64,000 nt of DNA from Microcoleus vaginatus WJT46-NPBG5. Lineage in GTDB: Bacteria; Cyanobacteriota; Cyanobacteriia; Cyanobacteriales; Oscillatoriaceae. Below, piece after piece: positions 2,627-63,346 of this stretch; position 1 is the first letter of the stretch; every line of letters starts with the position of its first letter. The translations under genes were made by a program, and so were the position numbers. The stretch lies in the NCBI GenBank assembly GCA_019359355.1, contig JAHHHM010000006.1, positions 62,001 to 126,000 of the forward strand, in the 5' to 3' direction. The notes under the pieces were generated by a model. It was given only the letters and a program-made list of their open reading frames with translations. It ran no database searches and was not told where the DNA came from.

Positions 2627-4027
2627 ATGCATGATGATGTCGCAATTTCGCTAAAAAATGTCTCAAAGTGCTTTAAGCGGTACGGGCATCCTGTAGACCG
2701 ATTAAAGGAAATTTTACTGCCTGGAAAAAGCCGATCTCAGGAGTTTTGGGCGCTGCGAGATATTAACCTGGAAGTGCCAAAGGGGCAAACTTTAGGGGTG
2801 GTTGGGCGCAATGGTTCGGGAAAAAGTACGCTGTTGCAAGTGATTGTGGGAACACTTGCGGCAACAACCGGCGAAGTCGAGGTAAAAGGTCGAGTTTCAG
2901 CTTTACTAGAGTTGGGGAGTGGGTTTAATCCTGAATTTACAGGCCGGCAAAATGTTTTTTTTAACGGTCAGTTATTGGGATTAAAGCATCAAGAAATTGA
3001 AGAAAGATTTGATGAAATCGCGGCTTTTGCAGATATTGGAGATTTTATAGATCAGCCGGTGAAAACCTATTCCAGCGGGATGTTTGTCAGGCTGGCGTTT
3101 GCGGTATCAACCAGTGTTGATCCGGATATTTTGATTGTAGATGAGGCGCTTTCAGTTGGGGATGAAGCGTTTCAGCGCAAATGCTTTGTCCGCCTGCAAA
3201 CGATTCAGGAAAGAGGGGGGACAGTTCTATTTGTTTCTCACTCGGCTGCGGCAGTGATTGAACTTTGTGATTCGGCAATTTTAATGGATCGCGGCGAGTT
3301 ATTGTTGTTTAATACCCCCAAGTTTGTTTTAGATAAATATCATAAGTTAATTTATGCGCCGGCTGATATTGAACAGTCTTTGCGGGAAGATATTAAGGCG
3401 CTGAATAAGCCGGTGAATCCTGAGTCGGTTAATCAAAGTGTGCTGATTTGTGAAAAAACTCCTTTATTATCTGTTGTGCCGAATCAAGCGATGGAGGATA
3501 AAGGGTTAGGGGAATTTTATGATCCAGAATTGGTGCCGGCGAATACGATTTCCTATGTGCCTCGCGGTGCCAAAATTATTAATCCTCAAATTACGACACT
3601 TGAGGGGAAACAGGTCAATCATCTGATTGGGCGAAATAATTACATTTACACATACACCGTTTCATTTTTTAAGCCGGCTTCTAAAATTCGCTTTGGAATG
3701 TTAATCAAAACCTTAAGCGGATTTGAACTAGGCGGCGCTTCATTTTCAACCGGCAGTCATTCCATTAACCATGTTGAAGCGGAAACGACTTTAATCGTTA
3801 AATTTCAATTTCAGTGTCTGCTGCATCCTGGTGTATACTTTTTAAATGCCGGCGTTTCAGGAATTGTTGATGGCAATTTTACTTACCTAGCTCGTTGTAT
3901 TGATGTTGCCATGTTTAGAGTGCAACCTCAAATCGAGTCTTGTGGAAGTGGAATTGTTGACTTACTGATTGAGCCTAGCTTATGCATTATTGAAGAAACG
4001 AAAAACTTGAACTTATCCGAACTCTAG
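2627..4027 (+). CDS. ABC transporter ATPase with C-terminal carbohydrate-binding domain (Wzt-like)
   Basis: Cytoplasmic ATPase partner of the permease at 1715. 466 residues. The nucleotide-binding domain (about 1-250) has Walker A GRNGSGKST near residue 63, signature YSSGMFVRLAFA near 148, Walker B ILIVDEALSVGD and the H-loop LFVSHS. Residues about 290-445 form a beta-rich extension of the Wzt_C type, which in E. coli O9a-type systems recognises the modified non-reducing end of the glycan. The long form therefore points to chain-end recognition rather than a simple KpsT. The next gene encodes a methyltransferase, the kind of enzyme that caps such glycans. Upstream gap 54 bp; downstream gap 109 bp. 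Confidence 0.92.
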   Translation: MHDDVAISLKNVSKCFKRYGHPVDRLKEILLPGKSRSQEFWALRDINLEVPKGQTLGVVGRNGSGKSTLLQVIVGTLAATTGEVEVKGRVSALLELGSGFNPEFTGRQNVFFNGQLLGLKHQEIEERFDEIAAFADIGDFIDQPVKTYSSGMFVRLAFAVSTSVDPDILIVDEALSVGDEAFQRKCFVRLQTIQERGGTVLFVSHSAAAVIELCDSAILMDRGELLLFNTPKFVLDKYHKLIYAPADIEQSLREDIKALNKPVNPESVNQSVLICEKTPLLSVVPNQAMEDKGLGEFYDPELVPANTISYVPRGAKIINPQITTLEGKQVNHLIGRNNYIYTYTVSFFKPASKIRFGMLIKTLSGFELGGASFSTGSHSINHVEAETTLIVKFQFQCLLHPGVYFLNAGVSGIVDGNFTYLARCIDVAMFRVQPQIESCGSGIVDLLIEPSLCIIEETKNLNLSEL

Positions 4028-7463: not shown

Positions 7464-9338
7464 ATGTTTAAAAGTGCACTCTTCCGTCCCCGACATATTA
7501 TGTCACGTCTAAAGCATCTATCTATTATTTGGAAAACCAAAGGCACACGCCATACCTTATCAAAAGTATTTAAGAAACTTTATCTTAAGCTAGATACTAC
7601 CCCGCCGGCGGTAATTGAAGCAGCGCCGGCAATGGCAACAAATGACGATCCCTACGCGCGTTGGCTCAACAAACATTACCCCAGAACAGCCGATCTGCGG
7701 AAAATGGCTGAAACCTTGGAAATTTTTCCACACAAGCCGGTGATCAGTGTTATTATGCCGGTTTTTAACACACCTGAACGTTTCCTAAAAGAAGCAATTG
7801 AATCCGTGATTCATCAGGTTTATCCCTATTGGGAACTGTGCATTGCAGATGATGCTTCAACAGAATTGTATGTAAAATCAATATTAAAGGAATATGCGGA
7901 AAAAGATTCCCGCATAAAAGTCCTTTTTAGAAGCGAAAATGGTCACATTGCTCGGGCATCTAACTCAGCTTTAGAAATTGCCACCGGCGAATTTGTTGCA
8001 CTGCTTGATCATGATGATTTACTAACGCCAGATGCCTTATATGAAGTCGCATTGCTATTAAATCGGCATCCCGAAGCCGACATGATCTATTCCGATGAAG
8101 ATAAAATTGATGAGGGTAATTGCCTCAAAGATCCCTTCTTCAAGCCTGAATGGTGTCCCGACTCTTTCCTATCCCGAATGTATACGTGTCACTTGGGAAC
8201 CTACCGGCGCTCAATTTTAAATGATATTGGGGGATTTCGAGCCGGCTATGAAGGCAGCCAAGATTACGATCTCGTTCTCAGATTTACAGAAAAAACCGAA
8301 AAAATCTTCCACATTTCCAAAATTCTCTACCACTGGCGAGTTCATCCAGAATCAACGGCAACCGGCACCGCAAGCGTCAAATCTTACGCTTACGAAGCCG
8401 CCGAAAAAGCGATTACAGAAGCCATTCATAGACGCGGCGAAAAAGGAAAAGTAACAGGCGTTACTGACTATCTCGGACACTATACAGTTCGCTACAAAAT
8501 CTCCGATTATAAATTAGTCAGTATCATCATTCCCACCAAGGATTTAGCAGGAATGCTGAATCAATGCCTGGAATCTATCTTTAAAAAGAGCGTCTATCCC
8601 AACTATGAAGTCATTGTCATAGACAACGGCAGCACTGAACCCGCAACCGCCAAATTATTTGCTGACTGGAGTGCGAAAGAACCGAGCCGGTTTAAATGTT
8701 ATCCGCTCGATATTCCCTTTAACTACCCTAAACTGAATAACTATGCCGTAAGCCAAGCCAAAGGCGACTATTTGCTCTTTTTAAATAACGACACAGAAAT
8801 CGTTACACCTGATTGGATAGACGCAATGGTTGAGCAAGCGCAAAGACCTTCAATCGGAGCCGTCGGGGCACTTTTGTTATATGACAATGATACCATTCAA
8901 CACGCTGGCGTTGTGATGGGAATTGGCGACGTTGCAGGGCATAGTCACCGGCATTTCCCCTCCACCACCCCCGGATACGTTTGTCAGGTAAAAACCATCA
9001 GTAATTATTCAGCCGTCACTGGCGCTTGTTTAATGTGCCGGCGCGATGTTTTTGAAAAGATTGGAGGATTTACTGAAGAATTAGCAGTTGCCTACAATGA
9101 TGTTGATTTGTGTTTAAAAATGGTTGCCAAAGGATATCGCAATATCTATCTTCCCCACGTCGTTCTCTACCACTATGAATCGAAAAGCCGGGGTTATGAA
9201 GACACCCCAGAAAAAGAACTGCGACGCCTCCGAGAAGCCGCAATTCTCAAAAGCCGGTGGCAATACATGATCGACCACGATCCTTGTTACAGCCCTCATT
9301 TAACCAGAGGACGTGAGGACTACAGTATTAATATATGA
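7464..9338 (+). CDS. Tandem-domain family 2 glycosyltransferase
   Basis: 624 residues with two complete GT-A domains. The first (about 92-325) has ISVIMPVFNT, LLDHDDLLTP and QDYDLVLR; the second (about 350-600) has VSIIIPTKD, the metal-binding FLNNDTEIV, GAVGALLLY and YNDVDLCLK. The first 60 residues are basic and amphipathic and may touch the membrane. Two-domain GT2 proteins of this kind often make two successive linkages in O-antigen or rhamnan assembly; the second domain resembles the WbbL/RgpF rhamnosyltransferase style. The stop overlaps the next start (ATGA at 9335), so the downstream sulfotransferase is probably translationally coupled. Confidence 0.92.
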   Translation: MFKSALFRPRHIMSRLKHLSIIWKTKGTRHTLSKVFKKLYLKLDTTPPAVIEAAPAMATNDDPYARWLNKHYPRTADLRKMAETLEIFPHKPVISVIMPVFNTPERFLKEAIESVIHQVYPYWELCIADDASTELYVKSILKEYAEKDSRIKVLFRSENGHIARASNSALEIATGEFVALLDHDDLLTPDALYEVALLLNRHPEADMIYSDEDKIDEGNCLKDPFFKPEWCPDSFLSRMYTCHLGTYRRSILNDIGGFRAGYEGSQDYDLVLRFTEKTEKIFHISKILYHWRVHPESTATGTASVKSYAYEAAEKAITEAIHRRGEKGKVTGVTDYLGHYTVRYKISDYKLVSIIIPTKDLAGMLNQCLESIFKKSVYPNYEVIVIDNGSTEPATAKLFADWSAKEPSRFKCYPLDIPFNYPKLNNYAVSQAKGDYLLFLNNDTEIVTPDWIDAMVEQAQRPSIGAVGALLLYDNDTIQHAGVVMGIGDVAGHSHRHFPSTTPGYVCQVKTISNYSAVTGACLMCRRDVFEKIGGFTEELAVAYNDVDLCLKMVAKGYRNIYLPHVVLYHYESKSRGYEDTPEKELRRLREAAILKSRWQYMIDHDPCYSPHLTRGREDYSINI

Positions 9339-25808: not shown

Positions 25809-26882
25809 ATGAAAGCTCTGATTCTCTCTGGCGGTAAAGGAACTCGTTTGCGCCCCCTCACTTACACCGGCGCAAAACAGTTAGTTCCAGTTGCTAATAA
25901 GCCGATTTTGTGGTATGGAATTGAAGATATTGTTGCCGCCGGCATTACGGATATTGGCATTATTATCAGTCCAGAAACCGGCCAGGAAGTCCAAGCAAAA
26001 ACCGGCAACGGCGAACGTTTTGGGGCGAATATCACTTATATTCTGCAAGAGCAACCGGCTGGTTTGGCCCACGCCGTCAAAATCGCTCAGCCTTTTTTAG
26101 GCGATTCTCCCTTCATTATGTATTTGGGAGATAATATTATCCAAAGCGAGTTGGCAACCTTTTTAAATACTTTTAAAAAGCAACAGTTGGATGCCTTAAT
26201 TATGTTGCGGCGGGTTGCCAATCCCAGTGCATTTGGGGTTGCAAAAGTAGATGAAAATGGGCGGGTTTTGCAACTAATAGAAAAACCTAAAGATCCTCCT
26301 TCTAATTTAGCGCTCGTTGGGGTTTATTTCTTTGCCAGCACAATTCACGACGCAATTGCAAATATCCAACCCTCAGCGCGTGGGGAATTGGAAATCACAG
26401 ATGCGATTCAAAAACTGATTGATCGGGATCAAAAAGTAGAAGCTTGTACTCTAGAAGGCTGGTGGTTGGATACCGGGAAAAAAGATGATTTACTAGAAGC
26501 CAATCGGATTATCTTAGATACCCAAATCACGCCTTCTATTGAGGGAGACGTTGACGAGAAAAGTCAGATTATTGGGCGAGTAAAAATTGGCGCTGGTACT
26601 AAAGTCGTTAATTCCTCAATTCGAGGGCCGGTGATTATTGGGAGTGACTGCTATTTAGAAAATTGCTTTATTGGCCCTTATAGCAGTATTGCTGATGGGG
26701 TAACTCTGATTGAGGCCGACTTGGAACACAGTGTGATATTGCAGAAAGCGACAATTGCCGGCATTCACCAGCGGATTGTGGATAGTGTAATCGGTCAGAG
26801 AGCGCAGTTGGGCGTCGCCCCCCGCCGCCCGAAAGCTATCCGGTTTATGATTGGGGATGACTGTCAAATTGAATTGGCGTGA
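25809..26882 (+). CDS. rfbA: Glucose-1-phosphate thymidylyltransferase, long form
   Basis: 357 residues, longer than the about 290 of the common RmlA. It makes dTDP-glucose from dTTP and glucose-1-phosphate. The nucleotidyltransferase domain has LSGGKGTRLRPLTYTGAKQLVPVANKP at the N-terminus, MYLGDNII and GWWLDTGKKDDLLEAN. Residues about 245-350 add a left-handed beta-helix (repeats such as GRVKIGAGTKVVNSSIRGPVIIG), the StrD-like long form. The stop overlaps the next start by 4 nt (GTGA at 26879). rmlB, the 4,6-dehydratase needed between RmlA and RmlC, is not in the window. Confidence 0.94.
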   Translation: MKALILSGGKGTRLRPLTYTGAKQLVPVANKPILWYGIEDIVAAGITDIGIIISPETGQEVQAKTGNGERFGANITYILQEQPAGLAHAVKIAQPFLGDSPFIMYLGDNIIQSELATFLNTFKKQQLDALIMLRRVANPSAFGVAKVDENGRVLQLIEKPKDPPSNLALVGVYFFASTIHDAIANIQPSARGELEITDAIQKLIDRDQKVEACTLEGWWLDTGKKDDLLEANRIILDTQITPSIEGDVDEKSQIIGRVKIGAGTKVVNSSIRGPVIIGSDCYLENCFIGPYSSIADGVTLIEADLEHSVILQKATIAGIHQRIVDSVIGQRAQLGVAPRRPKAIRFMIGDDCQIELA

Positions 26883-30539: not shown

Positions 30540-32210
30540 ATGCTGAAATCTAAGGCCAAATCAAAGCGGAAATCCAAGAAATCCAAACAGCAACCCACGG
30601 CTGAAAAGCCGCCCCTGAGTAAAAAAGAGCAAAAAGCACAAAAGCGACAGGCAGCACGTGAGCGCAAAGAAGCGGTTAAAACAATCACCCCCGCTGTGTT
30701 TGCCTCTGTTGCGATTGGGATCTTGCTGTTTCTCCTCAAAGGCCCGAAACTTGCGATTGCCGGCTGCGGTGGGTTTCTTGCCCTAACGCTTGCTTTTAAA
30801 TACCCTCGACAAGCGCTTTGGGCATTCCTAATTTACCTACCCATTAATGGCACCGTAACTTATTGGGTTGGGGGTGGAAATGCTGCATTTCAACTGGCTA
30901 AAGATGCGCTTTACTTTCCAGCCCTTGTGGCATTAGTTCAGCAGTTGAAACACAGCCGGCTGCCGCTCGTAATTTCTAAAGGGCTGGTACAGCCACTGCT
31001 GATTTTGCTGACAGTTTGTATCTTGACATTAATATTAGTTAATGGCTCTCAACAGTTCTCTCCAACTCCGGGCGGGAAACCCATCTTATTAGGAATTTTA
31101 GGTCTAAAAGTTTTTATCGGATATATGCCTTTAATCACTTGCGGTTACTACCTGATCCGCAACAAACAGCAATTTCTTTTCCTAACCCGAATGCACATTG
31201 TTCTTGCTTTGATTTGCTGTGGCCTAGGTTTGTTGCAATATATGATGCTGCAAACCGGCAAGTGTGTGGGCACTCGAAATTTGGAAGGAGCTGAATTATT
31301 TAAAGCAACGACAGATGCTAAATGTTTGGTAGGAGGTTCTCTCGTCTTTAGCCCCCAGGTAAATGCGATCCGCTTACCGGGAACATTTGTCTCGCCTTGG
31401 CATTGGGCTTGGTTCTTGATGTCTAACACCTTTTTGACCTTTGGATCTGCCTTTAGCGACCCTTCTTTACTCTGGCAAATTGCGAGTTTTGCTTCCCTGG
31501 CAGCCGTTATCATTAACGCTGTAATTTGTGGTCAAAGAATTGCTCTGGTTGCCGTGCCGACAATTATTATAATTCTACTGATTCTTACGGGCCAAGTGGC
31601 GAACCTAAAACGCTTTCTTCCCATTGCGGGGGGAATTGGCCTTTTGGCGGGTGCCGGTGTGGCGATGTTTCCCAAGTTTGTTCAAGATCGGATCACGAGT
31701 TTTGTTGAGCGTTGGCAGGCTTCACCGCCTACAGAGTTTTTTGCTAATCAAGTGCAGTTTACTGTTGAGGGACAGGCGGGATTATTGGGCAAAGGTTTGG
31801 GACGTGCAACAAACTCCGCTCGTGCCTTGGGTGACACTCAGCTAATAGAAACTTGGTTTCCTAAATTACTCTATGAAATCGGGCCGGTTGGGTTGATTGC
31901 GTTTCTAATTTTTGTAACAGCTTTGAGCGTGGTTACGTTTAAGGCTTATCGTTCTCTCCAAGACAAAAACTTACGAAGTTTTGGGGCTTGTTTGTGGGTG
32001 TTTGTTTTGTTTGTCAGTTATAACCCTTATTGGTATCCACTAGATACCGATCCAATTGCGGTTTATTACTGGTTTTTTGCGGGCGTGATTCTTAAATTGC
32101 CGGTACTGGATCGTCAAGAGCAAGAAAAGCTTCAAGATGCAGATCCCAATTTACTTGTTGACGCTAAGAAAGAACGTCTGAAAAAAAATCGGCGTTCTGC
32201 ATTCGCATAA
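30540..32210 (+). CDS. hpsL: Polytopic O-antigen ligase/polymerase-like protein, probable HpsL
   Basis: 556 residues. The first 50 residues are extremely Lys-rich (KSKAKSKRKSKKSK), then about ten to twelve hydrophobic segments to residue 525, with one large loop near 235-300 (CVGTRNLEGAELF... FVSPWHWAW) as in Wzy/WaaL-type enzymes, and a charged C-terminus. Such proteins polymerise or ligate glycan units at the periplasmic face. The lysine-rich start and the following GT2, GT4, GT4 genes match what I recall of the hormogonium polysaccharide hpsL-hpsP locus; the hps assignment is from memory and gene order, not alignment. Alternative: a generic O-antigen ligase-family protein. Confidence 0.8.
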   Translation: MLKSKAKSKRKSKKSKQQPTAEKPPLSKKEQKAQKRQAARERKEAVKTITPAVFASVAIGILLFLLKGPKLAIAGCGGFLALTLAFKYPRQALWAFLIYLPINGTVTYWVGGGNAAFQLAKDALYFPALVALVQQLKHSRLPLVISKGLVQPLLILLTVCILTLILVNGSQQFSPTPGGKPILLGILGLKVFIGYMPLITCGYYLIRNKQQFLFLTRMHIVLALICCGLGLLQYMMLQTGKCVGTRNLEGAELFKATTDAKCLVGGSLVFSPQVNAIRLPGTFVSPWHWAWFLMSNTFLTFGSAFSDPSLLWQIASFASLAAVIINAVICGQRIALVAVPTIIIILLILTGQVANLKRFLPIAGGIGLLAGAGVAMFPKFVQDRITSFVERWQASPPTEFFANQVQFTVEGQAGLLGKGLGRATNSARALGDTQLIETWFPKLLYEIGPVGLIAFLIFVTALSVVTFKAYRSLQDKNLRSFGACLWVFVLFVSYNPYWYPLDTDPIAVYYWFFAGVILKLPVLDRQEQEKLQDADPNLLVDAKKERLKKNRRSAFA

Positions 32211-32248
32211 AACCCTTATTTTGAGTTTCCACTTTTTCGGGACAGAAG

Positions 32249-33229
32249 ATGCAAGCTGTAAATGAGCCTTTAATTTCTGTAATTGTTCCCACTTATGGAC
32301 GGGAGGAACCTCTGCGGCAAACTCTGGTGGATGTATTGCAGCAAGATTACTCTAATTTTGAAGTGCTTGTTGTTGATCAAACGGCAAATCATGAAGCAGA
32401 AACGCAACTTTTTTTAGAGCAACTGTTTTCTGCCGGCCAGATTCAGTGGTTCCGGGTAAATTGGGCAAGTTTGCCGGCTGCGCGTAACTATGGTGTGCGT
32501 CGGGCATCTGGGGAAATTATTGTGTTTATTGATGATGATGTGAGGCTGCCGGCTGGTTTTTTAGCAGCTCATAGACGAACCTATCAAAAAGCATCGATAG
32601 GGGCGGTTGCTGGACGGGTATTCGACCGAATGAAACTGACTGATTCGGGCGGTGATTTAACAATTGAATATCTTCCTCCAGAGGCGAAAGATCCGGGGAT
32701 TGCTTGGTATTATATTGACCTAGTGCATACGGTAAAGCCTCAGCCGGTAATTTCAGCGAGAGGCTGCAATATGTCTTTTCGCCGGCAAGTTTTTACTGAG
32801 TTTGACTTGCGTTTTGATGAGCGATTTAAGGGCAGTGCGGTGCGAGAAGAGTCTGATTTTTGCTTGCAATTTCGCAAAACCGGCTACGAAATTTGGTATG
32901 AACCCGAAGCGCATTTAATTCACTTGGGTGAGGAAACCGGCGGTTGCCACGATATCAGCACTCGCTCGGCTCAATATCAGATTAATCTTTACCATAATCA
33001 CTTTTTAATGGGGTTTAAAAATCTCACCCCTTCTCAATGCTTGAAATTCTTCGCTCGTTTATTTGATTGTCAAGTTTTAGGCCATCCTCCTTGCAACAAA
33101 AGTGGGTCTTTGATTAAAACTTTGGGGCGAGCCGGTTTCTATACTCTCGGTTTCTTAAAAGCGTTCGCTACAGTGGTTCAATCGGCTTGGGATGACGGAC
33201 AAATCTACAGTCGGCAAGATTCTATGTAG
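32249..33229 (+). CDS. hpsN: Family 2 glycosyltransferase, probable HpsN
   Basis: 326 residues. GT-A motifs: ISVIVPTYGREEPLRQTL, LVVDQTAN, ASLPAARNYGVRRASGEIIVFIDDDVRLP (metal site in FIDDDV), ISARGCNMSFRRQVF and REESDFCLQFRKTGYEIWYEP with the catalytic base. The C-terminal about 60 residues are weakly hydrophobic. It sits 38 bp after the ligase-like gene, hence probably in its operon, and the neighbourhood suggests the hormogonium polysaccharide GT2 (HpsN). The symbol is tentative and rests on neighbourhood and remembered sequence style. Confidence 0.8.
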   Translation: MQAVNEPLISVIVPTYGREEPLRQTLVDVLQQDYSNFEVLVVDQTANHEAETQLFLEQLFSAGQIQWFRVNWASLPAARNYGVRRASGEIIVFIDDDVRLPAGFLAAHRRTYQKASIGAVAGRVFDRMKLTDSGGDLTIEYLPPEAKDPGIAWYYIDLVHTVKPQPVISARGCNMSFRRQVFTEFDLRFDERFKGSAVREESDFCLQFRKTGYEIWYEPEAHLIHLGEETGGCHDISTRSAQYQINLYHNHFLMGFKNLTPSQCLKFFARLFDCQVLGHPPCNKSGSLIKTLGRAGFYTLGFLKAFATVVQSAWDDGQIYSRQDSM

Positions 33230-33393
33230 GTGAGTTAGCTATCAAATAAAAAGCAATGTGTAGAACTTTTTTAACTGTAGATGATAGCAAGTAGGAGAAG
33301 AGATTTGTGAAAACCTCAATCCTATTGAGCTAGAAAGTGTTAAATTATGAATTTATTGCCTAATTTCTGTCGGCCTTTACATTCAGTTGCATC

Positions 33394-33951
33394 ATGATAT
33401 TTTCAAATCTTTTGCGGGGTGATCGAATTCGACTCACTGCTTTAACATCAAAGGATCTCACCACTGTTGCCGGCTGGCATGAAGATGCTGACTTTTTACG
33501 CATGGTAGATGCGCGTCCAGCAACGCCTCAAACTGAGGAATTGCTAACGCAATGGTTAGAAGAACGTTACAAAGCAACAGACGCTTTTGTTTTGGCAGTT
33601 CGAGGTAAAAGTAGCGAGGATTTGATTGGGGTTATTGAATTTGAAGGAATTCTCTGGACGCATCAAGTAAGTTGGATGAGCGTTGCGATTGGCAATCGCA
33701 GTAATTGGGGCAAAGGTTATGGTTATGACGCAATGCAACTCGCCCTTATATTCGCTTTTGATGAACTGAATCTATATCGAGTACAACTAACCGTTTTTAG
33801 CTACAACGAACGTGCAATTGCTTTGTATGAAAAGTTGGGTTTTCAACGTGAAGGCGTCTACCGGCAATTTTTACAGCGCGACGGCAAGCGCTATGATATG
33901 TATTTGTATGGACTCTTGCGCCCAGAATGGGAAAAGGTTAAAACTCACTAA
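33394..33951 (+). CDS. GNAT-family N-acetyltransferase (RimJ/RimL-like)
   Basis: 185 residues. GNAT fold with GDRIRLTALTSKDLTTVAGWH at the N-terminus, IGVIEFEGI, SVAIGNRSNWGKGYGYDAMQLAL (acetyl-CoA pyrophosphate loop, Q/RxxGxG variant) and YNERAIALYEKLGFQREGVYRQ. It acetylates an amino group of a small molecule, sugar or protein N-terminus; the substrate is not evident. Its 3' end overlaps the convergent glycosyltransferase gene by 4 bp. The position suggests, but does not show, a glycan-related role. Confidence 0.9.
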   Translation: MIFSNLLRGDRIRLTALTSKDLTTVAGWHEDADFLRMVDARPATPQTEELLTQWLEERYKATDAFVLAVRGKSSEDLIGVIEFEGILWTHQVSWMSVAIGNRSNWGKGYGYDAMQLALIFAFDELNLYRVQLTVFSYNERAIALYEKLGFQREGVYRQFLQRDGKRYDMYLYGLLRPEWEKVKTH

Positions 33952-35120
33952 TTTTTATTCGCTAAAATTTGCTCGTAAGCTTGAATCGTTTGTTGGGCAA
34001 TCGTCTCCCAATTATAATACTTTAAAGCATAATTCTGAGCGTTTAATCCTCGCCGCTGGCGCTCACTTACATCCTTTAACGCTAATCTTAGCGTATCAGT
34101 AAGCGCTGCCACCTCACAGGAACAAACCCAGCCGGCTTCTGCTTGCTGCACTTCCTCCCAAATATGCACTTGATCGGAAATAACTACCGGCGTTCCCGCA
34201 GCCATCGCTTCTGCTACTGCAATTCCAAAGTTTTCGTAATAAGAAGGCAAAACAAAAATATCAGCATTTTCTAGCAAAGCTGCTTTCAAATTTCCAGAAA
34301 CAAAACCGGTGACTGTAGTGTGTTTAGCAAGGGTGGAGTTTGCTATTTGTTTACGAATTTTAGCCTCATAGTTGGGATCTTGGGGGTTATTTCCAGCTAA
34401 TACAAAGTGAAAACTTAATCCTTCAGCGAGAAGGTTTTCTAAAGCCGGCAACAGCAAATCTAGTCCTTTTTTTGAGTCAATTCTGGACATAAAAAGCAGT
34501 AACGGGTTGGCTAAATTTAAATTATGAAGTTCTTGACTATTGACTGTGTTTTTGGTAAGGTTAACGCCTAAAGGGATGACTAAATCCTGTGTAATTAAAC
34601 CAAATCGTTCTGAAATCTTAGCTTCCTGTTGACTGGTGAAATGAATAGCCGCAGCACCGCCTAAGTTAGGCCGTTCAAACAAGGCTGCATAAACTCGCTT
34701 TAGCTGCTTTTTCTTTTGGAGATCGGCAGGGTCAAGAGTGCCTAAAGGACGCAAAATATAAGGTAAATTTCTAGTTCTCGCCACTGTTGCCGCAGCCGTA
34801 CTCACTGGCGAAAATAAGGCATGAATATGGGCAAGATCGAAGGCTTTCGCGTGCCGGCTTAGCCAACGCAGCAAGTCAAGAGAAAATTTGTAACGCCGAA
34901 ACGGAGAACAGGGAAAATAATACACCTGATAACCATTTTGTTCTACTGGCCGGTTTAAGGGTACATCGAGCGGTGGCTGACCCACATCTCCGTTAGAATT
35001 GGTCGTGAGAATGGTTACTTCAATTCCTTTGCCGGCAAGTGCTGCGGAAAGTCCTAGCACCATTTGACTGGGACCCCCGTAGACTAGGGAAATTGAAGGG
35101 ATGATTTGCAGAATTCGCAT
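33948..35120 (-). CDS. hpsP: Family 4 glycosyltransferase, probable HpsP
   Basis: 390 residues. GT-B: ILQIIPSISLVYGGPSQMVLGLSAAL at the N-terminus (glycine-rich acceptor loop), HIHALFSPVS, FMSRIDSKKGLDLLLPAL, and donor-site PSYYENFGIAVAEAMAAGTPVV with the E-x7-E pair. Together with the gene at 35285 on the same strand it faces the hpsL/hpsN-like pair. The starting segment matches what I remember of HpsP; treat the symbol as tentative. The ATG at 35120 is the first residue of the conserved strand, which supports this start. Confidence 0.82.
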   Translation of the reverse strand: MRILQIIPSISLVYGGPSQMVLGLSAALAGKGIEVTILTTNSNGDVGQPPLDVPLNRPVEQNGYQVYYFPCSPFRRYKFSLDLLRWLSRHAKAFDLAHIHALFSPVSTAAATVARTRNLPYILRPLGTLDPADLQKKKQLKRVYAALFERPNLGGAAAIHFTSQQEAKISERFGLITQDLVIPLGVNLTKNTVNSQELHNLNLANPLLLFMSRIDSKKGLDLLLPALENLLAEGLSFHFVLAGNNPQDPNYEAKIRKQIANSTLAKHTTVTGFVSGNLKAALLENADIFVLPSYYENFGIAVAEAMAAGTPVVISDQVHIWEEVQQAEAGWVCSCEVAALTDTLRLALKDVSERQRRGLNAQNYALKYYNWETIAQQTIQAYEQILANKN

Positions 35121-35284
35121 ATTTAAAGTTTTTTTAACCGCAGATAAACGCAGATGGGTTAAAGATCAGTTGATAATGGGATGTTTTTGCCGGCGCTTGA
35201 GTTAAGTGTCTATTTTGCAGGGATAGGAAATTATTTATTTCAGGATTAAATGTTGGAATGGATGGGCTAATCTCTGTATTTTCT

Positions 35285-36451
35285 TTAAAGAAGCTCTTTA
35301 TAAAATTTAAGTAATTGCTGAGCGAGGGCTTTATTAGTATATTTTTTTTTGACTCGTTCATAACCCTTTTGTGATAAGCGTTTAGCTAATTCTGGATATT
35401 CTATTATCTGAGTTAAACATTTTTTTAGTGCTTCTGCATTTCCTTCTGGAAAGACTAAACCGGCTTCTCCAATGACATGAGGAATTTCACCGGAATTGGA
35501 GCCTATAACCGGCACTTGACAAGCCATTGCCTCGATCAGTACATGACCAAATTGTTCTTTCCAACCGGCAGCCGTTAAAGTTTTAAATTTATCAGTGGTT
35601 TCCGAGGGCAAAACTAAGGCATTCATTAGGTTAATATATTGGTAAACTTGGTCATGGGGAACACTTTCTACCCAAATTAGTCGATTTTGCAGATTATTTT
35701 CAATTGCCCATTCTATTAAAGCTTGCTGTAATTGTCCTCGCCCTACTAATAACCATTTCCAGGGAAAGTTTTGCAAATCTGTTAAGGCTTTAGCGAGAGT
35801 CAGTAAACCTTTTTCTTCCACAAATCGGCCTACAAATCCCACAACGAAATCATTCGGCTGAATATTTAAGTTATGACGTAGTTCTGGCTGGAGTTGACGT
35901 TGAAACAAGCTTTCATCTACACCCAATTGCGGCATCACTTGAACTGCACCTTGATAGCCACGTCCACGCAAAATTTCAGCGCCGTCCTGATTGCCGGCAA
36001 TTAAACCGTGAGTGTGGCGCAAATTATAAGCCTCTAATTGAGAAATCGGCCATTTCAAATGGTATGGCAAATTCCACCAAGTAAAAAATAAGTTTTTCGC
36101 CTTTAGTCCCAGCAGCCGGTTGAGCGTAATTAACTGAGCATAAGCCAGGGAACGAGAACCCTGTTCCACCTGAATAATATTAGGTTGAAACCGACGCAAT
36201 AGCTGAACTAAATCAGCCCCAAAAGTGAGCAGTCCTTGGTGATTTTCACTAAAATTAGAAACCGGCACCACTTTAAAAGACCCTTCATCAATCAATTGCA
36301 TCTCAACCGTCTGGTTTTGCACACCCCCTGGTTTCCACCGGCGCGGTACCACAACTGTCACCTCAATCCCCGGTTCCAAATTAGCTAAAACTCGCAATTT
36401 CTCACGGTTGAGGTCAACAATATAAGTGTGGCTGGCAACTAAAATTCTCAT
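35285..36451 (-). CDS. hpsO: Family 4 glycosyltransferase, probable HpsO
   Basis: 388 residues from the ATG at 36451; an in-frame TTG at 36487 would add 12 poorly conserved residues, and MRILVASHTYIV is the expected first strand, so the ATG is used. Motifs: VTVVVPRRWKPGG, IIQVEQGSRSLAYAQ, VVGFVGRFVEEKGLLTLAKAL and the donor-site segment FGHVLIEAMACQVPVIGSNSGEIPHVIGEAGLVFPEGN. It lies 164 bp upstream of the hpsP-like gene on the same strand. Retaining sugar transfer to a lipid-linked glycan is the family role. The symbol is tentative, from gene order and remembered sequence style. Confidence 0.8.
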   Translation of the reverse strand: MRILVASHTYIVDLNREKLRVLANLEPGIEVTVVVPRRWKPGGVQNQTVEMQLIDEGSFKVVPVSNFSENHQGLLTFGADLVQLLRRFQPNIIQVEQGSRSLAYAQLITLNRLLGLKAKNLFFTWWNLPYHLKWPISQLEAYNLRHTHGLIAGNQDGAEILRGRGYQGAVQVMPQLGVDESLFQRQLQPELRHNLNIQPNDFVVGFVGRFVEEKGLLTLAKALTDLQNFPWKWLLVGRGQLQQALIEWAIENNLQNRLIWVESVPHDQVYQYINLMNALVLPSETTDKFKTLTAAGWKEQFGHVLIEAMACQVPVIGSNSGEIPHVIGEAGLVFPEGNAEALKKCLTQIIEYPELAKRLSQKGYERVKKKYTNKALAQQLLKFYKELL

Positions 36452-36586
36452 AAAAGGGGATAATAAATGAACAAGGATCTCTTGCAAAAGTCGAAAATCT
36501 TTCTAATCTATTTGTGATTAAAATCAAAATTTCCAACTTTTGCAAAAGCTCTAAAAAATTCCACGACAACGTTAAATACCCTCCCC

Positions 36587-37888
36587 TTATAAAGGCGTTA
36601 AAACCAAACTACCTTCATTTGGAAAACCTAATTCATTGCGCTCACCAAACCGCCAGTGTTGCTGATACCGGCTCAAAAAATTCTGACCAATAATCCCCTC
36701 AACACCCAGCAAATCCAAAACATCACTCTTAAGAATCACAGCATCAAGATTTGAAACTTGGTGTTCTCGTAAACTGAATTGAGGCAAGGTTGTTTGTTTA
36801 CCGGCTTCTGTGCCACAAAAGCCCTGTACCTCAATATCTTTAGCATTAGCCAAATCCAAAGAAAGCTTACCAGCCAAACGATCAGAAACCACACTCAGAT
36901 CAGCGCCGGTATCTAGCAGAAAAGTAAATGGCCCTTGACCGTTGATTTCAACTTGAGCCGTCATCACCCCCATTTTTCCTTTCAGGGGAATCACATCGGC
37001 AGTCGCACCAGAAGGCGGCAAAAGTTGCAGTTGAAAGCTTTTAGGATTCACCACCATATCAAAGCCACTGAGAAAATCAAGTCCCAAAACCCCAGAAACA
37101 TCGCCCGGAATTGCTGTTTTAGGCAATCCCATGCCGGTGATCCCCTGAACACTCGCCTTGTCAACCGCCATCACCGGCATCTCATGCAAAGACGCATTAA
37201 TATCAGAACAATTGTCACCGACAACCATATAAGCCAGCATTTCCTGGGGAATGGGAGTTGCTGGCAAACCGAGTTGCTGGGCGATCTGACTGTCCACAAT
37301 CGAATTCGATGCGCCGGTATCTAGCAAAAAAGTTTTAGGCTGCCCGCCGACACTCACCGAGAGGCTAAACAGTTGTTGTTCAGCAACCGGCTTCAGCGTC
37401 ACAGAAGCTTGTCCCTGACTTGACGGTTTCGGCAGTGTAATGCCGGTGGTTTTAACCAAAGCAATCATGCGTTCATTCGCATCTGGGCGAATGCTGCCGT
37501 CTGGCGCTAACATCACCACCTTAAAGACACATTGCGAGGAAGCTGCTTGAATTTGCTCTAGGGAAGGCATCTGTCCGCTAGGGACAGTCGTTTTTACACA
37601 CTCAACCACTTCTTGCAAAATTTCCTCGCCGGCAACGCTGGGGGTTGGGCTGGTTTGCTGCGCCAGTTTAGGGGGAATTGTGCCGACTTTTTGAGCAGAT
37701 GAATCGAATTTTTCACCTTTAAAGGGCACCCTTATCAAAGGGGAAGTTTTTCCCGACTGTGCTGAAGCGGCTGGCTGCCACTGGCTGGTAAGCGAGTTCT
37801 GGGCTAGGTTGGGCAAAGGCGTTAAGGCAATTCCCCCGCAGATTGGGGCGAGGGCGATCGCTAAGACAGCAGTCCAAGATAGTTTCAT
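36587..37888 (-). CDS. Secreted retropepsin-like aspartic protease with two DTG domains
   Basis: 433 residues with an N-terminal signal peptide (hydrophobic core near residues 6-25) and a low-complexity linker to about residue 85, then a helical segment with two Cys. Two retroviral-type aspartic protease halves follow: FLLDTGASNSIVD near 188 and FLLDTGADLSVVSD near 325, each with the LGLDFLS / IIGQNFLSRY strand typical of the fold. Retropepsins normally dimerise; here two halves in one chain could give a pepsin-like intramolecular active site. It would act in the periplasm or outside. Monocistronic, convergent to none. Substrate unknown. Confidence 0.88.
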   Translation of the reverse strand: MKLSWTAVLAIALAPICGGIALTPLPNLAQNSLTSQWQPAASAQSGKTSPLIRVPFKGEKFDSSAQKVGTIPPKLAQQTSPTPSVAGEEILQEVVECVKTTVPSGQMPSLEQIQAASSQCVFKVVMLAPDGSIRPDANERMIALVKTTGITLPKPSSQGQASVTLKPVAEQQLFSLSVSVGGQPKTFLLDTGASNSIVDSQIAQQLGLPATPIPQEMLAYMVVGDNCSDINASLHEMPVMAVDKASVQGITGMGLPKTAIPGDVSGVLGLDFLSGFDMVVNPKSFQLQLLPPSGATADVIPLKGKMGVMTAQVEINGQGPFTFLLDTGADLSVVSDRLAGKLSLDLANAKDIEVQGFCGTEAGKQTTLPQFSLREHQVSNLDAVILKSDVLDLLGVEGIIGQNFLSRYQQHWRFGERNELGFPNEGSLVLTPL

Positions 37889-58875: not shown

Positions 58876-58948
58876 GGGGAATTAGCTCAGCTGGTAGAGC
58901 GCTGCGATCGCACCGCAGAGGTCAGGGATTCGAGTTCCCTATTCTCCA
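58876..58948 (+). tRNA. tRNA-Ala (anticodon CGC), insertion site of an integrative element
   Basis: 73-nt cloverleaf: acceptor GGGGAAT / ATTCTCC with the G3-U70 wobble that marks tRNA-Ala, D-arm GCTC-AGCTGGTA-GAGC, anticodon stem CTGCG / CGCAG with loop ATCGCAC (anticodon CGC), T-arm AGGGA-TTCGAGT-TCCCT, discriminator A; CCA not encoded. The integrase gene starts 54 bp downstream, which fits use of the tRNA 3' half as attL. The gene appears intact, as expected when the attachment repeat restores the 3' end. Confidence 0.95.
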
Positions 58949-58990
58949 TAGTTTCAAGGTCATCTGCGGCGTCAAAACCTCAGTAGAAGA

Positions 58991-59012
58991 TTGTCAGAAA
59001 ATTGTCAGAAAA
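58991..59012 (+). repeat. Two tandem 11-bp direct repeats at the integrase start
   Basis: TTGTCAGAAAA occurs at 58991-59001 and again at 59002-59012, exactly head to tail. The second copy begins with the TTG that is the best available start of the integrase gene. Such direct repeats close to attL could be integrase arm-binding sites. Confidence 0.55.
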
Positions 59013-60123
59013 TTTATCGCCTCGACCAGGCGTACAAGTTGACTCCGACCGGGGCCGGTTATTGTGTCGGTGGTCGGTTGCCGGTAAGCGGTATCGGCTT
59101 TATTTAAAACTGCCCGATACCAAACGGAATAGAAAGTTAGCTGAAGCCAAGGCCACCCAGATTGAGTGGGACATTTTATCGGGCAACTTTGACCCAACGC
59201 TGGCAAAGTACAGAATTCAGCCCAAGCTATTTAAGGAAGCGCCAGAGGTTAAGCCCCTGTCGGTTGTCGAGCTTTTTGGGGAGTTTATTGAGCACAAAAG
59301 CCAAGATTTAGATCGGCGCACTTTGGAAAAGTATCGGGCGCTTGAGAGCCGGCTTGCCCAGTTTTTCAAAAAAACCATTTCAAGCGAGGTGACCGAACCG
59401 ACCGCGCGAAAGTTTTTAGACTTCCTTGCAAAGTATCAGCAACCGTTGACGATCAAGGATAGGCTTTTCCTTCTTAACGCTTGCTGGCAGTGGGCTGTAA
59501 AAAATGGGTGGTTGGTGAGCAATCCTTGGGCAGAGATTCAGGTAAAGGTAGCGCCCAAGCAAAAGCCCAAACCTTTTACCAGCACCGAAATTAAGGCAAT
59601 TATTGAGGCTTTTGAGACTGGCTCTTACAGCCATTACTGCAATTATGTGCGCTTCCTGTTCATGACCGGCTGCCGAACTGCTGAAGCGATCGGTTTGCGC
59701 TGGCGACACATTTCTGATGATTTCCGCAGTATTTGGATTGGCGAAACCATCACTAGGCGACGGCAAAAAACGACCAAAACTAACAAAGATCGCGTTTTCC
59801 CGTGCAACGAGCAGTTGTCAAGTTTTTTACGAGCCATTAAGCCGGCTGACGCCCAACCAGACGATCTGGTGTTTCCTTCGCTTGAGGGCGGTGCAATTCA
59901 TGATGACAATTTCAGGAAGCGAGCTTGGCTTTCTACATTGAAAGCGGCGGGGGTGCCATATCGAAAGCCTTACAACACAAGGCACACGTTTATTTCTCAT
60001 TGCCTCGCCGGCGGCATGAACCCCGTGGAAGTGGCAGCGGTCACCGGGCACGATGTGCAGACGCTTTACCGGAGTTATGCCGGCGTGGTTTCGTCGCGCC
60101 CTAAGATTCCTGATTTATTTTAA
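59002..60123 (+). CDS. Tyrosine recombinase (phage/ICE-type integrase)
   Basis: 373 residues. An N-terminal SAM-like/AP2-type DNA-binding part (to about 190), then the catalytic domain with Arg in FMTGCRTAEAIGLRW, the His-x2-Arg box YNTRHTFISH, the later GHD and the nucleophile Tyr in LYRSYAG. All catalytic residues are visible. It likely integrates the element into the tRNA-Ala gene 54 bp upstream. No in-frame ATG exists near the 5' end (TAG at 58984), so the TTG at 59002 or an ATT/GTC codon must serve; the start is uncertain. Its stop overlaps the convergent gene at 60101 by 23 bp. Confidence 0.94.
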   Translation: MSENLSPRPGVQVDSDRGRLLCRWSVAGKRYRLYLKLPDTKRNRKLAEAKATQIEWDILSGNFDPTLAKYRIQPKLFKEAPEVKPLSVVELFGEFIEHKSQDLDRRTLEKYRALESRLAQFFKKTISSEVTEPTARKFLDFLAKYQQPLTIKDRLFLLNACWQWAVKNGWLVSNPWAEIQVKVAPKQKPKPFTSTEIKAIIEAFETGSYSHYCNYVRFLFMTGCRTAEAIGLRWRHISDDFRSIWIGETITRRRQKTTKTNKDRVFPCNEQLSSFLRAIKPADAQPDDLVFPSLEGGAIHDDNFRKRAWLSTLKAAGVPYRKPYNTRHTFISHCLAGGMNPVEVAAVTGHDVQTLYRSYAGVVSSRPKIPDLF

Positions 60124-60486: not shown

Positions 60487-60626
60487 TGTATGAGGCGCTT
60501 CGTTAATAGTCACTCCCTCATTACAAGCCATTTCGCTAACATTAAGTGTATGAGGCGCTTCGTTAATAGCCACTCCCTCATTACAAGCCATTTCGCTAAC
60601 ATTAAGTGTATGAGGCGCTTCGTTAA
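60487..60626. repeat. 60-bp tandem repeat, 2.3 copies, at the 3' end of the replication gene
   Basis: Copies at 60487-60546 and 60547-60606 differ by one base (T at 60510, C at 60570), and a 20-bp partial copy runs 60607-60626 into the stop codon of the replication gene (60623-60625). Each full copy can form a stem ATGAGG / CCTCAT (60490-60495 with 60516-60521). Near-identity indicates recent expansion. It separates two genes on the same strand. Confidence 0.95.
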
Positions 60627-63346
60627 GCCCAATCCTCGCCCCACTGACTTTCAATCTGGCGAGAGTCGCGGCTGTCTGGCGGAAGCTGAATATCCAGCCC
60701 AAGCTGTTTTGGATTTTCCGGGGTGGTCGCGGCAACCTTTAGCGCCTTGATATATTCACGCTCCGCCGGCAGCAAATTGCGCCACACAATCAGCCGATCA
60801 TCGTCAGTGATGCCGTCCATTAGTGCGTGAAATGTCTCCCAATCTACATTCTCTTCGATCGCATATTGAGCGAGCACTAAAAAAGTGTGAGCAGAATCGC
60901 TGAAATGAAGGGGTGACGGGTCAGGTGACGGGTCAGGTGACGGGTCAGACTCGTTACCCTGTAAGGGTTTGGGCGTGGTGACGGGTAAAACGTTAGTTAT
61001 TTTAATTTCGGATTTTTCTTCTCCGGGGTGATCAAAGTGATTTTGATTTTCGCCATAAGTTTGCTTTGACCCGTCACCACCCATCAAAGCTATACCCTGA
61101 GAGCATCCTGACCCGTCACCTGACCCGTCACCTGACCCGTCACCACCCGTCACCGCCAAAATAAGCCGATCATCGTGCGGCAAAATGTGGCTGTCAAATT
61201 CTGGGTTCCTGAGTCTCAATCCTTTGATCAATTTGCCGTTTTTGCTGGACACTCGCTCAACCTCCCAGCCCAAAATATTGCGACAAAGTTCTACTAAGTC
61301 AGGCGAGAAATTTTTGTTCGCCTTAGCCTGCGTACCCGATTGATAAGAGTGCTTGCAGTAGGAGCCGTAAAGAGTTGTCGCACGTTCTCCATTGATTGCC
61401 TCATCCTTGTTGACCCCTACCGGCGTCGTGGCGTTCGGGTCGTAAATTACCCAATCATTGAGCCAAGCGGCGATAGAGTCGGTTCTTAACCTACCTTCCC
61501 AGAACTCCAGGGTGCATTCTGGGGTAACGTCCTCGCCTCTCAATACCCGTGTAACTTGAGCGTCTGGGATTGACAGCACGTAGTTAGTGAAGGCGTCTAA
61601 CTCCCCCTGGAACTCCTCTTCTAGATTCCGCCGATCCTTTGGCAGAACTGAGGCGTTGAACGGGACGGTAATCACGCGACGGGCTAGACCGCTAGAGGTA
61701 TCGCCGGCGAAAATTGGGAAATTGGAGCTAACAACCGTCATGCCGTCGTAGAGAAACTGAAAGGCTTTTTTTCCTTTCTCCTCGGCCCTGAGCCAATCGC
61801 CCCCGGTCAGAGATTTAAATTTACCCAGCTTGCCGGCTTTTTTGTCCTCATCCCAGAAGGCGATCAGGCGTTTGCGGTAAGCATTGGCTGCTTCAAATTG
61901 ATTGCCGCACCAATCCTCTAGCGTTGAGGAGTGCAAGTTGGTTTGGCCGATCAGGTTGGTAAGCAGCCGCATAAAGGTGCCCTTACCGCTGCCGCCCGTT
62001 CCGACCAGGTGAAGAAATCGCTGCAGGTCGGATCGCCCTTTCAGTGTGGCGTTACAGAAACACAGCAAAATATCTTTGATAGATTGATTTCCCCCGCTGG
62101 CGTGATCTAGGTATCGCTCTATGCAATCCCAGTTACTGGCTTTCGGGTTGTGCTGCCTAGGTAACTGCCAAGTGAGCCGGTAACCTGGGGAGTGTGGCAA
62201 CAGTTTGCCGGTTTCAACTTCCAAGCATCCGTTTTCAAAGGGCAGCAACTCTTTAGGTGATCGCTCCAACCATTTGCGAATGATTAGCAGACAGCGCAAC
62301 TTTTTAACAATATTCACCACATAGCTATGGGAGCCGTAATCAGTTATCCCCTGACCGTCAAGAATCCCGGATACGATCGCTTCGATATATTCGTCTGTCT
62401 CTGGCGACCACATACCCTCACAATCAGCGCCATAGCGCATCCACTGTCTAGACTCGTTGTTGTAGGCGAGTTGTTCGCGGTACCGCTCTGCTAGTTGACG
62501 GGCGACTCTATCAGGGGGTGGAATTCTATCAGTTTTGTCTGATTCCTCTGACCGGCTTAACTGTTTTTCCCACGCCTCAATTGATTGCGCCTTGGCAAGA
62601 ACTTCTTTTTTGAATTTATCAATGCCGTGTTCCTGTAAATAATCGTCAATCCCTTTGCCTTCTTCCACCTTCCAAAGTCCTGTAATGCTGTAGACAGGAA
62701 CTTTAAATTTTTGCAGGTAACTGGCTAGTTTCTTCTGTGCCCAGTTAACGTTTTCGTTCGTCGCGGCGTCGGCATCAAATCCAAGGATAAAACCCAGCCC
62801 AGCCTTGGCTAATTCTTCCAGTGCCGGCACCAAGTAACGTTTACCCTGAATGTCAGACTTGGCTGAACTCAGTCCCATTTCTACGCCCAGTAGAGCAACT
62901 GTAGCGATGCCGGCAGAGCTGAGCGCGATCGCCTTAAAAAATCCCTCCGTAACAACTACGCAGGGATGCCCATCTATCTGGTAGCAGTGTCCCCTAAGCT
63001 TCTCTATGTCTTGCCAATAATCAAGCTCTAGCGGATTAATTGGCAGCATTGCATCATAATCACCCAAGGCACTGCGATACTTTGGTGCTTTTTTCTCGCC
63101 TTCACTTTTCCACGGCTTGTCAGGCTTGAATTGTCCCTGGATGCCGACACCTTCTAACCAGATACCGCTAGATTTAGCGGTGTATCCTAACAGGTGAGTG
63201 GCTACGGATTCATCAACTGATTTGCAGTTAATTTCTACCCAAGCAGCATCCAAACTTCGCTTGACGGTAAGCTCCTGGTAGTGTTGATCGTTCAAGCGAT
63301 CCACAATATGATATAAAGGCTTTGCAGTTAATATCTGGAGCTGCAT
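60623..63346 (-). CDS. DUF3854/toprim plus SF3-helicase replication protein (P4-like primase-helicase)
   Basis: 907 residues. The N-terminal region (about 90-250) has VVVTEGFFKAIAL (toprim Glu near 134) and LGFDADAATN (DxD near 191), as in DUF3854-type primase-like domains. A D5-type region (about 320-430) precedes an SF3 helicase: Walker A VGTGGSGKGTFMRLL near 448-460, Walker B IAFWDED near 496-501, motif C VVSSNFPIF near 540. The C-terminal part holds acidic low-complexity runs GDGS x3 (about 735-747) and DPSP x3 (801-812), encoded by the same 12-bp unit in opposite orientation. It should start replication of the integrative element. RBS AGGAG lies about 10 nt before the ATG. Confidence 0.93.
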   Translation of the reverse strand: MQLQILTAKPLYHIVDRLNDQHYQELTVKRSLDAAWVEINCKSVDESVATHLLGYTAKSSGIWLEGVGIQGQFKPDKPWKSEGEKKAPKYRSALGDYDAMLPINPLELDYWQDIEKLRGHCYQIDGHPCVVVTEGFFKAIALSSAGIATVALLGVEMGLSSAKSDIQGKRYLVPALEELAKAGLGFILGFDADAATNENVNWAQKKLASYLQKFKVPVYSITGLWKVEEGKGIDDYLQEHGIDKFKKEVLAKAQSIEAWEKQLSRSEESDKTDRIPPPDRVARQLAERYREQLAYNNESRQWMRYGADCEGMWSPETDEYIEAIVSGILDGQGITDYGSHSYVVNIVKKLRCLLIIRKWLERSPKELLPFENGCLEVETGKLLPHSPGYRLTWQLPRQHNPKASNWDCIERYLDHASGGNQSIKDILLCFCNATLKGRSDLQRFLHLVGTGGSGKGTFMRLLTNLIGQTNLHSSTLEDWCGNQFEAANAYRKRLIAFWDEDKKAGKLGKFKSLTGGDWLRAEEKGKKAFQFLYDGMTVVSSNFPIFAGDTSSGLARRVITVPFNASVLPKDRRNLEEEFQGELDAFTNYVLSIPDAQVTRVLRGEDVTPECTLEFWEGRLRTDSIAAWLNDWVIYDPNATTPVGVNKDEAINGERATTLYGSYCKHSYQSGTQAKANKNFSPDLVELCRNILGWEVERVSSKNGKLIKGLRLRNPEFDSHILPHDDRLILAVTGGDGSGDGSGDGSGCSQGIALMGGDGSKQTYGENQNHFDHPGEEKSEIKITNVLPVTTPKPLQGNESDPSPDPSPDPSPLHFSDSAHTFLVLAQYAIEENVDWETFHALMDGITDDDRLIVWRNLLPAEREYIKALKVAATTPENPKQLGLDIQLPPDSRDSRQIESQWGEDWA
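60912..61154. repeat. Two inverted arrays of 12-bp iteron-like units (candidate origin)
   Basis: The unit GGTGACGGGTCA occurs in tandem at 60912-60923, 60924-60935 and 60936-60947, with a one-mismatch copy at 60977-60988. The reverse complement TGACCCGTCACC occurs at 61067-61078, 61109-61120, 61121-61132 and 61133-61144, with a 10/12 copy at 61143-61154. The two arrays face each other across a clearly AT-richer stretch (about 60990-61066). They lie inside the replication-protein gene. Iterons near an AT-rich segment are classic origin features; the function is not proven. Confidence 0.9.

Follow-up and report, generated by a model that had tools for sequence, protein, structure and literature searches.

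Mirrored iteron arrays inside a primase-helicase gene of a cyanobacterial mobile element as a probable embedded replication origin

The window analysed here, a 64-kb stretch of Microcoleus vaginatus DNA, contains a mobile element integrated at the 3′ end of a tRNA-Ala (CGC) gene (58876–58948, forward strand), with the tyrosine integrase of the element (59002–60123, forward strand) adjoining the integration site. The left 43-bp att repeat (58907–58949) recurs outside the window at C35:142397–142439 and C35:163887–163929. With these three repeats, the assembly holds two head-to-tail copies of the element (21,490 bp each; 100% identity over 21,533 bp) that span from window position 58907 to C35:163929, a perfect tandem dimer that may be real or may be an assembly product of a circular form. 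Of the 26 ORFs kept for the element, 14 were scanned against protein families (one of them in part); the matches include a DNA methyltransferase, a second recombinase, an HTH regulator and a C39-like peptidase, and weak matches point to a HerA/terminase-like ATPase. Two genomes of the same genus could be compared at this site. In one, the tRNA locus is present but just 43 bp of the right flank are found beside it; in the other, the same tRNA-Ala gene is occupied by a related element of ~18.5 kb.

This sibling element (L165; G002:C6:134000–153500) gave no tblastn match to the replication protein described below. It encodes a 307-aa ORF (2879–3802, minus strand) with weak winged-helix matches, and 5.9 exact 21-bp direct repeats lie inside the gene. 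This ORF recalls an initiator of the lambda-O type, whose gene contains iterons, and it is possible that one embedded-origin module has been swapped for another between the two elements.

The gene of interest (60623–63346, minus strand) encodes a protein of 907 aa, hereafter Rep, which was characterized by family profiles and an AlphaFold model; a 60-bp direct repeat in 2.3 copies (60487–60626) overlaps its 3′ end and continues just past it. The domain order is DUF3854 (Toprim-like; E 8.7e-24), D5_N and DUF5906/P4-family primase C-terminal (SF3/D5 helicase), the latter two matched by Pfam in the helicase part, followed by a winged-helix-like end (from predicted secondary structure only), a disordered linker that bears the arrays, and a C-terminal helical module. 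Four NCBIfam models were matched by Rep (primase_Cterm, two PRK models and dnaG). The top Foldseek match is the SaPI5 primase-helicase 7ola (E 1.1e-18), to which a sequence profile also led (2.5e-29). The AlphaFold model, built with 43 sequences, has a mean pLDDT of 82.4. Residues 737–814 fall below a pLDDT of 50, preceded by a confident fold and followed by moderately confident helices (817–874), and this stretch coincides with the DNA arrays at codons ~731–812.

The mirrored iteron region that we propose as the origin (60912–61154) contains nine exact copies of the 10-mer GGTGACGGGT, four in forward and five in reverse orientation. An outer array of three tandem GGTGACGGGTCA units (60912–60947, forward strand) and a single inner iteron (60977–60986, forward strand; 10-mer exact) lie on one side of an AT-rich core (60989–61066). 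On the other side are a single inner iteron (61069–61078, reverse strand; 10-mer exact) and a second outer array (61109–61154, reverse strand), in which three tandem iterons are accompanied by a fourth 10 bp farther out. Repeat steps in the outer arrays are 10–12 bp. Relative to 61027.5, the 10-mer centres stand at −111, −99, −87 and −46 and at +46, +88, +100, +112 and +122; eight of the nine thus pair as a mirror, to within 1 bp, around a dyad at 61027/61028, and the ninth is an extra outer copy. A degenerate reverse copy with two mismatches at 60949 makes a tenth, without a mirror partner. The 78-bp core is 67% AT, compared with 39% in each arm and 51% in the remaining gene, and is a candidate unwinding element.

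Neither the number nor the arrangement of the repeats is reproduced by shuffling. With up to two mismatches allowed, the 12-mer matches the window 11 times; nine of these matches fall within 60912–61154, and none of 100 shuffles reached the total of 11 (shuffle maximum 7). Seven of the nine are exact (60912, 60924 and 60936 forward; 61067, 61109, 61121 and 61133 reverse), and two are imperfect (60977 forward, one mismatch; 61143 reverse, two mismatches). The tail of the gene has a facing score of 13, a value attained by none of 1000 synonymous-codon shuffles (maximum 10), and the top facing score elsewhere in the window is only 6 (400-bp windows, step 40). A sequence-only reading of the region had already described nine copies in two facing groups around an AT-richer core, placed them inside a primase-helicase gene, and observed that the same DNA unit reads GDGS on one side and DPSP on the other. 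All of this is borne out, except that the reading took three copies to be imperfect and we find two. The genome search that it proposed gave 15 exact 12-mers: seven lie here, seven lie in the identical second copy of the element, and the remaining one is an isolated match on contig C41, where the facing score never exceeds 4 within the surrounding 10 kb.

For the relatives, we examined 123 loci, comprising 30 from 195 related genomes (our own gene among them), 80 from genome contigs, where 104 relatives were cut to the best 80, and 13 from viral contigs. A matching ORF was present in 118 loci, giving 121 ORFs, of which 11 without a core end and six cut by a contig end were excluded. Among the resulting 104 usable tails, 31 near-copies were counted once, leaving 73 non-redundant tails; two were shorter than 120 nt, leaving 71. 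Arrays were called from facing 10-mers with at most one mismatch, at a threshold score of 6. Facing arrays were found in 50 of the 71 non-redundant tails, in a sample that includes the best 80 of 104 contig relatives. By comparison, the threshold was reached by one of 211 similar-sized segments taken from the conserved portion of these genes, and by 188 of 2840 synonymous shuffles. The score exceeded that of all 40 own shuffles in 49 of 71 tails, namely 47 of the 50 together with L068 and L094 (score 5 each); the called tails that did not do so are L026, L038 and L040. Since L038 and L040 show a single reverse hit each and resemble protein repeats, 48 is a safer count than 50. The remaining 21 of the 71 tails stayed under the threshold, some with partial arrays and others with none.

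The layout of the arrays is conserved together with their presence. In the relatives, the median distance from the end of the conserved core to the start of the left array is 48 nt, steps are mostly 10–12 bp, and the arms are separated by a median of 122 bp, with varying gaps inside the arms. The DNA between the arms is 62.9% AT compared with 54.2% in the remaining gene, and is richer in AT than that remainder in 46 of 50 cases. For the left arms, the gap adjacent to the core is the largest in 21 of 48 against 13.1 expected, and for the right arms in 24 of 43 against 13.4 expected. Mirror symmetry is a moderate effect in the relatives, with 145 versus 129 matches out of 196; the mirror alignment was better than a shifted one at 16 loci, equal at 29 and worse at three. 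Of the seven members with short tails (<330 nt), L074 and L041 have a stop codon between the arms and the right array beyond it, and their arms show reversed polarity relative to the other called members; in the other five, no facing array was found at score 6. When 23 tails with a low score or none were extended by 500 nt past the stop, L074 rose to 14 and L041 to 10, while L027 reached 8 through a GCGATCGC palindrome and L015 reached 6 at 720–850 nt past the core.

Selection on the arrays acts at the DNA level. The iterons of one arm do not all share a reading frame in 27 left arms out of 50 and in 29 right arms out of 48 (arms with two or more iterons). Because of these mixed frames, the differing peptides of the two arms and the loss of the match in most synonymous shuffles, the encoded peptide is not the conserved feature. 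Furthermore, iteron letters differ between relatives, approximating a family consensus of G-G/T-T-G-A-C-G/A-G/A-C-T with much variation, and the two arms of one gene change together: left and right arms match at a mean of 10.15 of 12 positions within one gene, compared with 6.66 against the arms of other genes, and the own opposite arm is the best or tied match in 36 of 50 genes. Over 48 genes, identity between the arms is 65–99% inside the ~10-bp unit and 26–43% directly outside it; the inside value is inflated because the hits were chosen on that identity, an effect from which the outside value is free. Behind the arrays, the 47 C-terminal modules compared fall into 23 clusters (E 1e-4). In our gene and three relatives with cores that are 59–65% identical, most GGTGACG/CGTCACC motifs are kept while the module changes. 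The sequence-only reading had suggested DNA-level selection or copying rather than a protein need, and had proposed to check whether the arrays are retained while the protein varies; this check comes out positive, and the arrays of close relatives are neither absent nor randomly placed. Covariation in 40-residue windows, computed for 48 genes over residues 255–714 only, did not reveal that iteron type tracks the winged-helix-like segment; partial correlations between iteron type and protein ranged from −0.15 to 0.31, with the highest at residues 285–324 (without a permutation test).

Beyond the gene tails, we scanned 13 replicons, consisting of our own element and 12 whole plasmid records (11 circular, one listed as linear), some of which are also represented among the 71 tails. 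The best facing array of the entire replicon lies in a rep tail in nine of 13, and for L148 this is so in two rep genes; a further three show a tie with a place outside rep (L141, score 6; L144, score 5; L151, score 11), and L143 misses. Cumulative GC skew, a check that the earlier reading had also named, did not support the arrays as an origin. The minima are not at the arrays, the nearest being that of L147 (0.05 of the length), and across 12 replicons the distance from the rep-tail array to the skew minimum is 0.05–0.38 of the replicon length, mostly ~0.2–0.28 and hence chance-like, in what is a weak test for small mosaic replicons.

Three of the plasmids show additional features. L148 (Nostoc sphaeroides p4) has a pair of DUF3854 Rep genes, and both contain a facing array built from one and the same iteron, a state that probably arose by fusion or duplication of replicons. 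In L143 and L151, mostly one-way arrays of GTTGACTTGT occur near parA (7797–8080, six copies in one direction, and 25849–26238, 11 copies, respectively); these are perhaps centromere sites.

Taken together, we consider it probable that the region at 60912–61154 is a bidirectional origin embedded in its own initiator gene and loading two Rep hexamers. What had been put forward as a possible embedded origin is supported by the relatives, and its function as an origin is inferred. The replication origin of a tRNA-integrated mobile element would then sit inside the gene of its initiator, in which a Toprim-type primase is joined to an SF3/D5 helicase. The iterons of each arm would be bound by Rep monomers and, by analogy with SaPI Rep, the mirror layout could bring one hexamer to either side of the AT-rich core, the two facing head to head; they would melt the core, and unwinding and priming would proceed in both directions. 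For the protein, this DNA would amount to a disordered linker, tolerated between the body of the helicase and the exchangeable C-terminal module.

Several other explanations have to be weighed against an embedded origin, of which a control site is the sole one that is still serious. According to this explanation, which we regard as unlikely, Rep would bind the arrays to control copy number or expression (autoregulation, handcuffing), and replication would start elsewhere, such as upstream of rep. In its favour, the iterons of known plasmids often serve both control and origin, and GC skew does not mark the arrays as an origin. However, control needs no mirrored arms around an AT-rich core, no equal or stronger facing array lies outside the rep genes in nine of the 13 replicons, and the array adjoins the helicase end, where SaPI-type origins lie according to parts of PMC7581432.

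Two further alternatives place the function of the repeats in the gene product. A low-complexity linker of four-residue repeats that have no role as DNA is very improbable: the facing match is mostly lost in synonymous shuffles, the two arms encode different peptides, the iterons of 27 of the 50 left arms are not all in one frame, and the right array of L074 and L041 lies outside the coding sequence. A disordered linker does tolerate repeats, and L038 and L040, with their single reverse hit, would fit such an origin of the repeats, as would the failure of these two and L026 against their own shuffles. A hairpin or attenuator in the mRNA is suggested by the complementarity of the outer arms in the window, which extends over 37 bases. 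In the relatives, however, complementarity ends at the iteron borders (26–43% identity outside) and the arm gaps vary, and therefore no long stem is kept, which makes this explanation extremely improbable. There is equally little to be said for a role in partition, with the arrays as a centromere for a ParB/ParG-like protein. Although par genes occur on some plasmids of this family, the arrays studied here accompany rep and not par, and the separate GTTGACTTGT array near parA in L143 and L151 suits that role better.

Extending the embedded origin to the whole family, we give even chances to the view that these initiators of cyanobacterial plasmids and integrative elements share an in-gene mirrored two-hexamer origin. 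The reading frame would once have ended before the origin, as in SaPIs, and later have been extended through it, so that the origin became a disordered hinge for swaps of the C-terminal module. Iterons would turn over in concert and give each replicon its own specificity, and many related replicons could therefore share one cell. Cyanobacterial plasmid origins are described as little known in passages of PMC10079941. Here a testable candidate origin lies at a predictable place, just past the conserved Rep core, in dozens of genes from plasmids, contigs and integrated elements. Their concertedly changed binding sites make them a natural set of candidate origins for the study of initiator specificity, incompatibility and vector design. 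Moreover, they illustrate how an origin might be accommodated within coding DNA, at the cost of a disordered linker in the protein.

Embedded origins are already known, from lambda O and reportedly from PY54 repA; a family-wide mirrored version was not found in the literature searched, whose titles and abstract openings do not describe a mirrored in-gene layout. For the telomere phages PY54 and N15, whose primase-helicase is P4-alpha-like, work by Ziegelin from 2005 is said to place the PY54 origin in the 3′ part of repA. Our caller found no facing array in repA of either phage (score below 6), and an origin inside repA is not mentioned in the passages of two telomere-phage papers. In phage P4, the Type I iteron reads GGTGAACA on the opposite strand, similar to GGTGACGG, and crr follows the 3′ end of alpha at a distance of 46 bp. 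Unlike here, the P4 sites are located outside alpha and ori and crr form two regions, neither of which reached the facing threshold of 6 with the same caller. No facing array at a score of at least 6 was detected in the primase genes of S-EIV1 and UFOVP1367.

Lambda O, unlike the Rep described here, is not known to be a helicase, and the lambda iterons form a row beside an AT-rich stretch instead of facing arrays. Passages of PMC3985674 locate the lambda origin, with four 19-bp iterons, in the middle of gene O; the arrays here lie within the gene of the putative initiator and would be alike in placement if they serve as an origin. CyRepA1 and CyRepA2 are similar in that they belong to cyanobacterial replicons and contain a DUF3854 domain (parts of PMC10079941). 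They differ in their DEXDc helicase (same parts of PMC10079941), in place of which our Rep has D5_N/DUF5906 and no match to a CyRepA-type model. The replicating fragments reported for cyanobacterial CyRepA Reps in passages of PMC9978351 and PMC10079941 include the whole rep gene, and pSYSA 31000–37000, with slr7037, has no facing array (highest score 4).

The best structural match comes from the SaPI-type Rep/ori systems (SaPI5 Rep 7ola; SCCmec Cch2), which share the D5/Primase_Cterm helicase and, on the 3′ side of its gene, the iterons. As described in parts of PMC7581432, helicases of this type bind iterons beside their own gene, apparently as two hexamers. The primase domain differs, being DUF3854 (Toprim-like) here and not AEP. 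Judged by their published description, SaPI origins lie downstream of the gene whereas the present arrays lie inside it; in L074 and L041 the right array is found beyond the stop codon.
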